Assembly: GCF_003254475.1 (NCBI RefSeq)
Contig: NZ_QFYQ01000001.1
Coordinates: forward strand, 1,736,001 to 1,800,000
Direction: 5' to 3'
Source of the DNA: Phenylobacterium soli
GTDB lineage: Bacteria; Pseudomonadota; Alphaproteobacteria; Caulobacterales; Caulobacteraceae
Length of the DNA stretch: 64,000 nucleotides
Part shown: one piece after another, positions 34,262 through 42,398 of the stretch
Numbering within the stretch: the first letter of the stretch is position 1
How the letters are laid out: each line of letters starts with the position of its first letter
Notes under the pieces: generated by a model
What the model saw: the letters and a program-made list of their open reading frames with translations, nothing else
Databases searched by the model: none
What the model was told of the DNA's origin: nothing
Position numbers and translations under genes: made by a program

Positions 34262-34810
34262 CTAGAGCGCCTCGACGCCGCGCTGGATCGAGAGGACGCC
34301 GGTGCGGGAGACCTCGACGAGGCCGAGGGGGCGCATCAGCTCGATGAAGCTGTCGATCTTGGACGGCGCGCCGGTGAGCTCGAAAACGAAGCTCTCGTGG
34401 GTGGTGTCGATGACCTTGGCGCGGAAGATGTCGGAGACGCGCAGGGCCTCGACCCGCTCGGCGCCCGTGCCGCGCACCTTCACCAGGGCGAGCTCGCGTT
34501 CCAGGCCGTTGGGGTCGCGGCTCACGTTCTGGACGTGGCGCATTGAGACCATCTTCTGGAGCTGGGCCTCGATCTGGGTGAGCACCTGGGGCGTGCCGCG
34601 GGTGACGATGGTGATGCGGCTGGTGTGCGCGTTGCGGTCGGTCTCGGCGACCGTCAGGCTCTCGATGTTGTAGCCGCGCGCCGCGAACAGGCCGACGACC
34701 CGGTGCAGCACGCCCGGCTCGTTGTCCACCAGGCAGGCGAAGGTGGCGAGGCTCTCGGCTTCCTCGGTGTGGGCGAGGTCGTAGACGGAGGCGGGCTGGG
34801 CGTCGGTCAT
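34262..34810 (-). CDS. ilvH: Acetolactate synthase small (regulatory) subunit
   Basis: Regulates acetolactate synthase by valine binding in branched-chain amino acid synthesis. Of 182 residues, the N-terminal ACT domain begins LACLVDNEPGVLHRVVGLF-like sequence (TFACLVDNEPGVLHRVVGL in part) with GYNIESLTVAETD, and the C-terminal domain has RDPNGLERELALVKV and ELTGAPSKIDSFIELM. Length and motifs are typical. The catalytic subunit gene ilvB lies about 3.8 kb away on the same strand rather than adjacent as is usual, with unrelated genes between. Confidence 0.95.
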   Translation of the reverse strand: MTDAQPASVYDLAHTEEAESLATFACLVDNEPGVLHRVVGLFAARGYNIESLTVAETDRNAHTSRITIVTRGTPQVLTQIEAQLQKMVSMRHVQNVSRDPNGLERELALVKVRGTGAERVEALRVSDIFRAKVIDTTHESFVFELTGAPSKIDSFIELMRPLGLVEVSRTGVLSIQRGVEAL

Positions 34811-38150: not shown

Positions 38151-38624
38151 TCAGCTCGCCACCGCGGCGACCCTGGCGTCCAGGACCTTCACGAGATCGG
38201 CCGGGGCGAGGCGGACCTGCAGGCCGCGCTGGCCGCCGTTGACGTAGGCTTCGGTGAGCTCTGCGGCCGCGGCGTCGATGACCGTCGGCAGGCGCTTCTT
38301 CTGGCCGAAGGGACTGACCCCGCCGACCCGGTAGCCGGTGGTGCGCTCGGCGAGCGGAACGGGCGCCATCTCGGCCGACTTGGCGCCGAGCGCGGCGGCC
38401 AGGCGCTTCATCGAGACCTCGCGGTCCGAAGCCAGCACCACACAGGCGGGCTTGCCGTCGGCGACGACGATCAGGGTCTTCAGCACCTCGGAGGGGGGCG
38501 CGCCGAGCGCCTCGGCGGCCTGCAGCCCAATTCGGTCGGCGTCGGGATCGTAGGCGTAGGTCGTCACGCTGTAGGCGACGCCCGCCTTGTCGAGCGCCGC
38601 GGTCGCCGGGGTCGCCCTACTCAA
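38151..38624 (-). CDS. ybaK: Cys-tRNA(Pro)/Cys deacylase, YbaK/EbsC family
   Basis: Removes cysteine wrongly attached to tRNA-Pro, acting in trans with prolyl-tRNA synthetase. The 157-residue protein has the family motifs EVLKTLIVVADGKP, SDREVSMKRLAAALG and GYRVGGVSPFGQKK. It starts with TTG and overlaps the ilvB stop by 3-4 bases (TTGA), so it is translated from the ilvB transcript; I know no functional reason for the coupling. Its stop abuts the phytochrome stop. Confidence 0.9.
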   Translation of the reverse strand: MSRATPATAALDKAGVAYSVTTYAYDPDADRIGLQAAEALGAPPSEVLKTLIVVADGKPACVVLASDREVSMKRLAAALGAKSAEMAPVPLAERTTGYRVGGVSPFGQKKRLPTVIDAAAAELTEAYVNGGQRGLQVRLAPADLVKVLDARVAAVAS

Positions 38625-40411
38625 ACCAGCCGCTTGCCGGCGTCGTCGATGATCGAGCCGAGGTCGCGGGATTCCTCGGCCATGATCATCTCGTTGTGCG
38701 CCTTGCCGGACGGGATCATCGGGAAGCAGTTCTCTTCCTTGGTGACCCGGCAGTCGAAGATCACCGGCTTGTCCACCGAGATCATCTGGCGAATGGCGTC
38801 ATCGAGCTCGTCCGGATGCTCGGCCCGGATGCCGACCGCGCCATAGGCCTCGGCCATCTTCACGAAGTCCGGCAGGCTGGCCGAATAGGAGTGGGAGTAG
38901 CGCTCGCCGTGCAGCAGCTGCTGCCACTGGCGCACCATGCCCATCCACTCGTTGTTGAGGATGAAGATCTTGATCGGCAGCTCGTACTGAACCGCGGTCG
39001 ACATCTCCTGCATGGTCATCTGCACGCTGGCGTCACCGGCGATGTCGATCACCAGGCTCTTGGGATGGGCCATCTGGACGCCGACGGCGGCCGGCAGGCC
39101 GTAGCCCATGGTGCCGAGGCCGCCGGAGGTCATCCAGCGGTTCGGTTCGTTGAAGTGGTAGAACTGGGCGGCCCACATCTGGTGCTGGCCGACCTCGGTG
39201 GTGATGAAGGTGTCGCGGTCCCTGGTCAGCTCGTAGAGGCGCTGAATCGCGTACTGCGGCTTGATGAGCTTGTCGTCCTGCCGGTAGCGGAAGGAGTCCC
39301 GGGCGCGCCAGGCCTCGATCTCGCGCCACCAGTCGCCGAGCGCGGCCTTGTCGGTCTTGTAGCCGCGGCTCTTCCAGGCGGCGATCAGATCCTCCAGCAC
39401 GCTCGCCGCATCGCCGACGATGCCGACGTCGGCGCGGACGTTCTTGCCGATCGAGGAGGCGTCGATGTCGATGTGGATCTTCCGCGAGGTCGGCGCGAAG
39501 GCGTCGAGGCGGCCGGTCACCCGGTCGTCGAACCGCGCGCCGATGGCGACCATCACGTCGCAGTCGTGCATGGCGTTGTTGGCCTCGAACGAGCCATGCA
39601 TGCCGACCATGCCCAGCCACTTCTTGTCCGCGGCCGGGAAGGCGCCGAGACCCATCAGGGTGGAGGTGACCGGCGCGCCGGTGATCTCGGCCAGTTCGCG
39701 CAGCAGCTCGGCTGCGCGCGGGCCGGCGTTGATGACGCCGCCGCCCGTGTAGAGGATCGGCCGGCGCGCGCCGGCGATCAGGGCGGCCGCCTCGGCGATG
39801 CGGGCCGGGTCGCCCTTGGTGCGCGGCTGGTAGTTGTGCGAGTGGGTGACCTCGGCCGGGCCCTTGTAAGGGGCCTTGGCGAACTGCACGTCCTTGGGGA
39901 TGTCGATGACCACCGGGCCAGGGCGGCCGGAGGTGGCGATGTGGAAGGCCTCGTGCAGGATGCGCGGCAGCTCCTCGACCGACTTCACCAGGTAGTTGTG
40001 CTTGGTGCACGGCCGGGTGATGCCGATGGTGTCGCATTCCTGGAAAGCGTCGGTGCCGATCAGGTGCGTCGCCACCTGGCCGGTGATGACGATCAGAGGG
40101 ATGGAGTCCATCAGGGCGTCGACGATGCCGGTGATGGCGTTGGTCGCGCCGGGGCCCGAGGTGACGAGGACGACGCCGGGCTTGCCGGTGGAGCGGGCGT
40201 AGCCCTCGGCGGCATGGGTCGCGCCCTGCTCGTGGCGGACCAGCACGTGCTGCAGCCGCGGCTCGGCGAAGAGCGCGTCGTAGATCGGCAGCACCGCCCC
40301 GCCCGGATAGCCGAACAGCACCTCGACGCCCTGGTCGATGAGGGCGCGAACGACGATCTCCGCGCCGGAGATGACGTCTTGTTGGGCTTCGATGGTCTGG
40401 TGGGCGGTCAT
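38621..40411 (-). CDS. ilvB: Acetolactate synthase large (catalytic) subunit
   Basis: ThDP-dependent condensation of pyruvates or pyruvate with 2-oxobutyrate, the first common step to valine, leucine and isoleucine. From the ATG at 40411 it has 596 residues with the ThDP-activating glutamate in LVRHEQGATHAAEGYAR, the FAD-region RFDDRVTG, and the ThDP-binding GDASVQMTMQE to NNEWMGMV. Expression is probably controlled by attenuation: a leader peptide with Ile-Leu-Val-Leu-Val codons (40496-40540) and a terminator (40436-40461) precede the gene. ilvH is about 3.8 kb downstream. Confidence 0.96.
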   Translation of the reverse strand: MTAHQTIEAQQDVISGAEIVVRALIDQGVEVLFGYPGGAVLPIYDALFAEPRLQHVLVRHEQGATHAAEGYARSTGKPGVVLVTSGPGATNAITGIVDALMDSIPLIVITGQVATHLIGTDAFQECDTIGITRPCTKHNYLVKSVEELPRILHEAFHIATSGRPGPVVIDIPKDVQFAKAPYKGPAEVTHSHNYQPRTKGDPARIAEAAALIAGARRPILYTGGGVINAGPRAAELLRELAEITGAPVTSTLMGLGAFPAADKKWLGMVGMHGSFEANNAMHDCDVMVAIGARFDDRVTGRLDAFAPTSRKIHIDIDASSIGKNVRADVGIVGDAASVLEDLIAAWKSRGYKTDKAALGDWWREIEAWRARDSFRYRQDDKLIKPQYAIQRLYELTRDRDTFITTEVGQHQMWAAQFYHFNEPNRWMTSGGLGTMGYGLPAAVGVQMAHPKSLVIDIAGDASVQMTMQEMSTAVQYELPIKIFILNNEWMGMVRQWQQLLHGERYSHSYSASLPDFVKMAEAYGAVGIRAEHPDELDDAIRQMISVDKPVIFDCRVTKEENCFPMIPSGKAHNEMIMAEESRDLGSIIDDAGKRLV

Positions 40412-40435
40412 CGGGTGGGACCTTGGCGTGGGGGC

Positions 40436-40461
40436 AATAAAAAAGGCCCGCGGGGGGCCTG
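40436..40461 (-). terminator. Attenuator terminator of ilvB
   Basis: On the minus strand AGGCCC (40460-40455), a 5-base loop, GGGCCT (40449-40444), then TTTTTATT. It is a complete rho-independent terminator 25 bp before the ilvB start and 35 bp after the leader-peptide stop, the expected attenuator position. Confidence 0.85.
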
Positions 40462-40481
40462 GGTGCAAGCGACCGTTCGGA

Positions 40482-40500
40482 TCTGACGCGGATCGTCAGA
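40482..40500 (-). promoter_or_regulatory. Leader (pause) hairpin overlapping the leader-peptide stop codon
   Basis: TCTGACG and CGTCAGA (plus-strand 40482-40488 and 40494-40500) form a perfect 7-bp stem with a 5-base loop; the leader TGA (40498-40496) is inside it. A ribosome completing the leader would disrupt it, one that stalls on the Ile/Leu/Val codons would not, as in classical attenuation. I could not identify the antiterminator pairing with certainty. Confidence 0.6.
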
Positions 40501-40540
40501 CCGGTTGCGGCCGCCCTACGAGTACAAGAATTCCGCGCAC
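40496..40540 (-). CDS. Branched-chain amino acid leader peptide of ilvB
   Basis: A 14-codon frame from a GTG at 40540 reads MRGILVLVGRPQPV, with GAGGA about six bases upstream as a ribosome site. Codons 4-8 are ATT CTT GTA CTC GTA: five branched-chain residues in a row, several written with codons that are rare in this GC-rich genome. The same frame is open to another GTG at 40567, which would add MILLFRGTH and three more such residues but lacks a ribosome site. A pause hairpin and a terminator follow before ilvB. Too regular to be chance, though translation is inferred. Confidence 0.82.
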   Translation of the reverse strand: MRGILVLVGRPQPV

Positions 40541-40582
40541 GTGCGTTCCTCGAAAGAGAAGGATCACGCGTTTCGCATGCCG

Positions 40583-41506
40583 CTAACCGGCCGTCAAGCG
40601 CGGGTCGAGGGCAATAAACTGCCTCCACTGGTTGTCGTGCCCCTCGTCGGTCAACCTGGGCCAGTCGGCCATCTGGCCGCGCATCCAGGTGAGCTGGCGC
40701 TTGGCGTAGCGGCGGGTCTCGCGCTGGGCGGCGGCAAGGGCCTCGGCCCGCGTGGCCTGGCCGTGGACGTAGGCGGCGAATTCCCGCACTCCCACCGCCT
40801 TCATCGCCGGCAGGTCGGGGTCGAGGTCGCGCGCGATCAGGGCGGCGACCTCGTCGATGGCGCCTTGGCTGACCATGGCCTCCAGGCGCGCGTCGCAGCG
40901 GGCGTAGAGCGCCTCGCGCGGGGGCTCCAGGGCGAGCGGGACATAGGCGCCCGGCGCGAGCGCCGGCTGGCCGGAGGCCTGCCAGTCGGACAGCGCGGTC
41001 CCGGTGGCCTCGGCGACCTCCCACGCGCGGACCAGGCGCTGGCGGTCGTTGGCGGCGATGCGGGCGGCGGCGGGCGGATCGCGTTCGGCGAGGCGGGCGC
41101 GGAACGCCGCTTCCCCCAGGCGCTCATAGTCGGCCTCGGCCGCGGCGCGCGCTTCGGCGGGGATGGCCGGCACTTCGGCGAGGCCTTGGGTGAGGGCGCG
41201 GAAGTAGAGCCCGGTGCCGCCGACGAAGACCAGCGGGGCGGATTCGCTCTCCATGATCTCGCTCGCGGCGCGCAGCCAGCGGCCGACCGACCAGCCCTCG
41301 GCCGCATCGACCGTTCCGAACAGCCGGTGCGGCGCCTCGGCCTCCTCCTCGGGGCTCGGGCGGGCGGTCAGGACGTGCAGGTCGCGGTAGAGCTGCATGG
41401 AGTCGGCGTTGACGATCTGCGCCCCGGTCGCCTTGGCCAGGCGCAGGGCCAGCGCCGACTTGCCGCTTGCCGTGGGCCCGGCGATCAGCCAGATGCGGGG
41501 CTCCAT
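40583..41506 (-). CDS. miaA: tRNA dimethylallyltransferase
   Basis: Adds the dimethylallyl group to A37 of tRNAs that read UNN codons. From the ATG at 41506 it has 307 residues with the P-loop [11 protein letters not shown] at the start, [22 protein letters not shown] and the late [13 protein letters not shown] motif. Length is normal. The start codon overlaps that of the divergent serB (CATG at 41504-41507), so each gene's upstream signals lie inside the other; a GTG 15 bp upstream (41521) is an alternative. It ends 15 bp before the ilv leader region. Confidence 0.94.
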
Positions 41507-42398
41507 GCAGCTTGCTCTCACCCTGGTCAGCCCGGAGCCGGGCGCCGCCGAAGACGCCCTTGCTCATCTCGCCTCAGCGCTCGCAGGCGCGCGGGCCCGC
41601 GTCAAGGAGCCCCGGCCGCTCGGGCCCGGCGCGGTCGACGTCGCCCTGGAGGCCGAGGATGCGAGCGCGGTGCGCGAGGCCGCCGAGGGGGCGCTCGAAG
41701 GGCGCGCGGTCGACGTCTGCGTCCAGCCGTGGAACGGGCGCAGGAAGAAGCTGCTCGTCGCCGACATGGATTCGACCATCATCAACGTCGAGTGCCTGGA
41801 CGAGCTGGCCGACTTCGCGGGGCTGAAGGCGCACATCGCCGCCATCACCGAGCGGGCCATGCGCGGCGAGCTGGAGTTCGAGACGGCGCTGAGAGAGCGG
41901 GTGGCGCTGCTGCGCGGCCTCTCCACCGGCGCCCTGCAGCAGACCTATGACGAGCGCGTGCGGCTGAACCCTGGCGCCCGGACGCTGGTGCGGACCATGG
42001 CGGCCAACGGCGCGCGCTGCGCCCTGGTCTCCGGCGGCTTCACCTTCTTCACGAGTCGGGTGGCCGAGGCGGCCGGCTTCCACCTCAACCGCGCCAACAC
42101 CCTGCATGAGGAATCCGGCAAGCTGACCGGCGAGGTGGGCGAGCCGATCCTCGGGCGCGAGGCCAAGCTGAGGTCGCTGCTCGGCGAGGCCGAGGACCTG
42201 AAGCTGCCGCTCTCGGAGACCCTGGCGGTGGGCGACGGGGCCAACGACCTGGCCATGATCGAGGTGGCGGGGCTGGGCGTCGCCTACCGCGCCAAGCCCA
42301 TAGTGGCGGCCCAGGCCGACGCCAAGGTGGACCACGCCGACCTGACGGCGCTGCTCTACTACCAGGGCTACCGGGCCGCCGAGTTCGTCACGGACTGA
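41505..42398 (+). CDS. serB: Phosphoserine phosphatase
   Basis: Last step of serine synthesis. From the ATG at 41505 the protein has 297 residues: an ACT-like N-terminal part (1-80) and a HAD phosphatase domain with nucleophile motif [14 protein letters not shown], the serine-binding [15 protein letters not shown], and [26 protein letters not shown] precedes the start weakly. The frame is open upstream into the antisense of miaA; the chosen start gives the usual SerB length. Its ATG overlaps the miaA start codon on the other strand. Confidence 0.94.

Follow-up and report, generated by a model that had tools for sequence, protein, structure and literature searches.

Comparative evidence makes it highly likely that ilvB of Phenylobacterium (Caulobacteraceae) is controlled by a ribosome-mediated transcription attenuator. 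The candidate element lies on the minus strand between miaA (40583–41521) and ilvB in the window, i.e. the whole 64,000-nucleotide stretch of DNA that was analysed, and consists, from 5′ to 3′, of TTGACG, the segment GCATGCGAAA, a Shine–Dalgarno sequence, a short leader reading frame, an inner stem and a terminator, after which ilvB begins (Table 1). By its Pfam domains ilvB is a gene of Ile/Leu/Val synthesis, and the leader with its stop signal very probably turns it on when Val, Ile or Leu run short. The first-pass annotation had read the region as a branched-chain amino acid attenuator; the codons and distances it gave were confirmed, and we found support for this reading: leader, hairpin and terminator were present at all 70 Phenylobacterium ilvB loci for which upstream DNA was extracted, and the architecture covaried across the class. 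As far as comparison allows the function to be assigned, the element is a further example of a switch that is known in Caulobacter and predicted in rhizobia.

Table 1. Features of the ilvB leader region and adjoining genes in the window (positions are those of the window)
Feature	Position	Strand	Basis
Putative promoter	40597–40571	−	TTGACG at 40597–40592 and conserved GCATGCGAAA at 40580–40571
Leader Shine–Dalgarno sequence CGAGGAA (core GAGGAA)	40552–40546	−	Sequence
Leader ORF MRGILVLVGRPQPV, GTG start, TGA stop	40540–40496	−	Sequence and genus conservation
Control codons ATT CTT GTA CTC GTA	40531–40517	−	Genus and class conservation
Hairpin 1:2 (pause/protector)	40519–40465; arms 40519–40508 (5′) and 40475–40465 (3′)	−	Folding and covariation
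Inner 7-bp stem TCTGACG/CGTCAGA, over the leader stop codon	40500–40482	−	Sequence and covariation
Proposed antiterminator 2:3, GCUUG/CAGGC	40470–40457	−	Folding; weakly conserved
Intrinsic terminator 3:4 (40460–40444) with U-tract	40460–40435	−	Terminator scan, folding and genus conservation
ilvB, acetolactate (acetohydroxyacid) synthase large subunit	38621–40411, ATG at 40411	−	Pfam TPP enzyme N/M/C domains
Aminoacyl-tRNA editing domain (YbaK-like) gene, overlapping the end of ilvB	38151–38624	−	PF04073

The leader, its control codons, hairpin 1:2 and terminator 3:4 are supported by both the sequence and its comparison with relatives. Behind its Shine–Dalgarno sequence the leader carries the run of five Ile/Leu/Val codons that had been reported in the first-pass annotation (the whole frame is GTG CGC GGA ATT CTT GTA CTC GTA GGG CGG CCG CAA CCG GTC TGA), and in the alignment of the genus loci a purine-rich box stands at the matching place. 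When the 171-nt intergenic region was shuffled 1000 times with its dinucleotides kept, such a run of five behind a start codon appeared in 4 of the shuffles. Start codon, frame and length (11 or 14 codons) were kept at 69 of the 70 loci, the leader at the remaining one (L003) being one codon longer; among the 69 tabulated, 45 leaders had 14 codons and 24 had 11. The shorter leaders end three codons earlier, ahead of the inner hairpin. Because these 24 stop before it, the overlap of stop codon and hairpin, which is indeed present in the window, is neither conserved nor essential. A longer leader from an in-frame GTG at 40567 (MILLFRGTHVRGILVLVGRPQPV) was rejected: it has no Shine–Dalgarno sequence and would begin at about the expected transcription start, and conservation favours the start at 40540.

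All 57 distinct genus leaders have GTA as their central Val codon; the extraction script demanded GTA, which dropped only L003 among the 70 loci, and that leader, read by hand, contains GTA as well. The preceding codon encoded Leu in 51 of these leaders, Ile in five and Thr in one, the following codon encoded Leu, Ile or Val in every one, and the positions flanking the core varied freely. Control codons conserved in relatives between variable flanks were what the first-pass annotation had proposed to look for, and the 70 loci bore this out. As judged from these sequences, however, the conserved core is about three codons, (Leu)-Val-(Leu/Ile/Val), and the control run of five, although present in the window, is a long version of it; in some members of the genus the run of adjacent Ile, Leu or Val codons is as short as two (MRVRTVLEWRP).

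The codons of the leader differ from those of the genes around it (gene codon usage was taken from the window only, 44 ORFs with 17,252 codons). GTA accounts for 13 of 1370 Val codons (0.9%) in the window genes versus 85 of 99 in the genus leaders, and ATT for 2.8% of Ile codons versus 22 of 43, whereas CTG, which makes up 57% of Leu codons in the genes, occurs once among 109 in the leaders. Thus the description of the control codons as rare holds for ATT, GTA and CTT (4.6% of Leu codons) but not for CTC (35%). In the genome we found one tRNA gene for each of Val UAC, GAC and CAC and Leu UAG, CAA, CAG and GAG; therefore GTA should be read by tRNA-Val(UAC), and CTT and CTC by tRNA-Leu(GAG). This suggests that the invariant GUA is the main sensor, via tRNA-Val(UAC), with CUY sensed alongside it via tRNA-Leu(GAG), and that the attenuator may be tuned to particular isoacceptors. 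On contig C3 of genome G000, 102 kb long, seven further tRNA genes (Thr, Gln, Pro, Trp, Met, Arg, Arg) lie clustered at 98347–99117 (L205), and several of them repeat anticodons found elsewhere; this contig is perhaps a phage or a plasmid.

The putative promoter spans the end of miaA and the first part of the intergenic region. TTGAC was found upstream of the leader at all 70 genus loci, 49–57 nt from the leader start codon, and at 67 of them the distance was 56–57 nt. The terminator (AGGCCC-CCCGC-GGGCCT followed by T6) matches the textbook terminator that had been placed ∼25 bp ahead of ilvB, as its T run ends at ∼40438, about 26 nt before the ilvB ATG; the terminator scan found this one site versus 0.2 expected. 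Just behind the U-tract, WTTGCC or AATGCC (40435–40443 in the window) is kept in most members of the genus and can pair with the leader sequence GGCGR. Since an intrinsic terminator does follow miaA, it could be argued that it merely ends miaA transcription, that the short ORF is incidental and that ilvB has its own unregulated promoter. We consider this very unlikely. A passive terminator has no need of a frame with a Shine–Dalgarno sequence, of an unchanging GTA and Leu-Val-Leu core in that frame, or of a covarying hairpin behind it, and at all 70 loci TTGAC precedes the leader by an almost constant distance; moreover, a simple sigma-70 scan detected no promoter-like site between the terminator and ilvB.

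The 7-bp hairpin over the stop codon that had been described first is present in the window, but it makes up only the inner portion of a more extensive conserved hairpin, 1:2, in which the leader sequence GTAGGGCGGCCG pairs with CGGTCGCTTGC. In the window RNA the pairing of the leader end GUAGGGCGGCCG with CGGUCGCUUGC had a folding energy of −28.2 kcal/mol, and the terminator pairing 3:4 (AGGCCC/GGGCCU) one of −10.3 kcal/mol. The total folding energy of the leader region was ordinary for its composition (z = −0.25). Since folding energy alone does not set the region apart, we base the case on comparison with relatives. The element had also been called complete; peptide, hairpin and terminator are all there, but an antiterminator had not been named, and the one that can be drawn is weak and poorly conserved. 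This proposed pairing, 2:3, would exclude both 1:2 and the terminator, as in a classical attenuator. Alone it has −3.3 kcal/mol in the window RNA (the genus mean, from segment 2 through arm 3, is −4.7 kcal/mol), and its exact bases are not kept in every member of the genus. Another antiterminator, 2:4 (GGUCGC/GCGGGCC), drawn by eye, was rejected, as full pairing is impossible in those members of the genus that have GA preceding the 3′ arm of the terminator.

When the leader was occluded in the folding test, 2:3 formed. When a ribosome stood at the control codons, the 5′ arm of the terminator was paired upstream before 3:4 was complete with a mean probability of 0.59–0.63 across 64 distinct genus sequences, compared to 0.27 with no ribosome. 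The E. coli trp leader, whose sequence we confirmed against E. coli genomes, behaved similarly in the same test (0.71 with the ribosome stalled, 0.23 with it absent). In contrast, when the ribosome was placed at the stop codon, 2:3 persisted at 0.49 in our element versus 0.0 in the trp leader. As the stop-codon ribosome fails to exclude 2:3 in folding, the mechanism has to assume that the ribosome is released. At equilibrium the terminator won in all ribosome states, but this is uninformative about the switch because the trp leader also showed the terminator in every state (0.96–0.98).

From these parts we infer a start site, ribosome stalling, the weak 2:3 pairing and a regulatory outcome that would fit together as follows. 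RNA polymerase would start at the end of miaA and transcribe the leader. If charged Val-, Leu- and Ile-tRNAs are available, the ribosome would read the 14 codons and leave; hairpin 1:2 would then re-form and hold segment 2 (GGUCGCUUGC), and terminator 3:4 would halt transcription before ilvB. On a shortage of Leu-tRNA or Val-tRNA, the ribosome would stall at CUU GUA CUC GUA and cover the 5′ arm of 1:2, and the freed segment 2 could form GCUUG/CAGGC with the terminator's 5′ arm. This pairing would delay the terminator, so that the polymerase enters ilvB and the tRNA-editing gene that overlaps it.

The editing gene is probably on the same transcript as ilvB. The gene for the small subunit, ilvN (34262–34810), lies 3.3 kb beyond the editing gene in the window, behind opposite-strand genes, whereas in most named Caulobacter loci it lies close behind ilvB. 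From this gene order we infer that control by the attenuator can extend to ilvB and probably to the editing gene, and not to ilvN on the same transcript. The opposite-strand genes between the editing gene and ilvN are DUF6665, an ORF without assignment and a phytochrome histidine kinase; the unassigned ORF takes the place at which one might look for a heme oxygenase. Gene order downstream of ilvB differs among Phenylobacterium genomes.

Covariation was assessed with a hand-drawn structure of three helices (outer 1:2, inner stem and terminator), from which we built a covariance model. Within the genus the structure was paired in 98.3% of cells with few two-sided changes, since the genus sequences are close. 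The model matched its own genome only once, at the window element, and it found ilvB leaders in other Caulobacteraceae, in other families of the order and in other orders of Alphaproteobacteria. In the class-wide alignment, 13 of the 16 base pairs showed two-sided compensatory changes. Two-sided cells numbered 132 versus 36 in shuffles, and the score was 0.481 versus ≤0.072 in slid controls, in an alignment that was fitted to the structure and so favours it. The core of 1:2 (6 + 5 pairs) was paired in 98.0% and 96.9%, and each of these 11 pairs showed two-sided changes. GTA was present in 39 of the 40 script-readable leaders among the class-wide matches.

Four matches of the model (L087, L088, L091 and L093; E 1e-4 to 0.01) lie away from ilvB and were rejected as chance. 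In genus g4 of the family no match was found in the four genomes checked; a close ilvB is absent there, so that the missing close ilvB, not loss of the leader alone, accounts for it. Two genomes of the same order (G080 and G085) gave no match to the model, yet have MRMSEVLVIRHP ahead of ilvB, and strict filters, which missed both, under-count the leaders. At ilvB loci of Parvibaculum and its relatives (L130, L131, L133, L136 and L139) no leader or model match was recognisable, unlike at most other named alphaproteobacterial ilvB loci sampled.

The closest known system is in the same family. Attenuation of ilvBN in Caulobacter crescentus has been published (Tarleton, Malakooti and Ely 1994, cited in PMC4117421), with the leader coding sequence named ivlL; as far as the citing account goes, it resembles our element in having the same gene, a leader with Ile/Val codons and a terminator before ilvB. 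The Phenylobacterium model matched named Caulobacter ilvB leaders with E values of about 1e-9 to 1e-12, those of C. vibrioides (L116 and L119) and strain Root343 (L117) scoring 53–55 bits, with the leader MRKTMIVLMERPFAG in L117 and L119. The core of the leader differs (ILVLV in the window, MIVLM in Caulobacter), and the arm sequences differ by compensatory changes. The E. coli trp attenuator is alike in architecture (leader peptide, 1:2, 2:3 and 3:4) but responds to another amino acid, is unrelated in sequence and has a stronger 2:3, which a ribosome at the stop codon excludes. In addition, the ilvB-OMG and ilvB-II motifs, the latter from Corynebacterium, comprise frames rich in branched-chain codons upstream of ilvB and have been proposed as attenuators (PMC10272879); the likeness is one of description, and no Rfam match of this kind was found in the window.

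In rhizobia, an ilvIH cis-regulatory element has been placed between SMc01431 and SMc01432 of Sinorhizobium meliloti, and in the citing account this attenuation is a prediction (PMC2573895, citing Vitreschak et al. 2004). The Rfam family Atu_C8 (RF02502), which Rfam files as a Rhizobiales sRNA, aligned end to end with our element at 18.5 bits, under its gathering cut-off of 50; the two share their architecture, and their sequences have diverged. Above the cut-off, RF02502 matched directly in front of ilvB in Phyllobacterium, two Mesorhizobium, Aquamicrobium, Devosia and a Hyphomicrobiales MAG, and the matches at L140, L142, L147, L156, L175 and L179 lie upstream of ilvB/ilvI with an Ile/Leu/Val-rich leader inside. 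Like our element, the rhizobial ilvIH attenuator and Atu_C8 have consecutive Ile/Leu/Val codons, a long 1:2 and a terminator directly upstream of ilvB/ilvI. Furthermore, both models matched one place in the alphaproteobacterial genome G301 and one ilvB leader in G382, and through these two genomes the sequences link our element to RF02502 as an indirect homolog. From its position at ilvB and these shared matches, Atu_C8 is most simply taken as the rhizobial form of the ilvB attenuator; it seems wrongly typed as an sRNA and is probably a cis-regulatory attenuator instead. On contig 3 of G301 (L187:5229–5348), an Atu_C8-type leader (98.8 bits, MQVSVVVGRRMGKAA) stands ahead of an MFS transporter gene, and no such leader was found in the miaA–ilvB spacer of that genome, an apparent relocation or recruitment of the attenuator.

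The filing of this homologous family as an sRNA, together with the alphaproteobacterial precedent of rnTrpL/peTrpL (PMC10117765), raises the question whether the element acts mainly in trans, as a small RNA or a peptide, like Sinorhizobium rnTrpL, with cis attenuation secondary. To this we give even less credence than to a passive miaA terminator, as the strongest conservation lies in the features of cis attenuation (codons, 1:2 and terminator) and in different orders the element keeps its place right in front of ilvB. By analogy with rnTrpL, the terminated leader RNA or its peptide might regulate other genes in trans as well, which we regard as unlikely; if it were so, the attenuator would report Val/Leu shortage to a wider regulon and Atu_C8 would be a rhizobial dual-function RNA. 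Finally, a structured RNA with a terminator ahead of a biosynthetic gene could be a ligand-binding riboswitch with a merely accidental reading frame, but this is hardly credible, as no Rfam riboswitch matched the window at the gathering threshold, the loops vary in length and sequence with no conserved unpaired core beyond the control codons, and the choice of codons is biased as in a translated sensor.

The window itself thus carries an ordinary, well-supported regulatory annotation of ribosome-mediated attenuation. What reaches further is that one alignment documents an attenuator found across the class, with a sensor of about three codons, one of which is a rare and invariant GTA. If Atu_C8 is the rhizobial ilvB/ilvI attenuator, the annotation would be corrected in many genomes, and the invariant GTA offers a usable test of which tRNA isoacceptor an attenuator should read.
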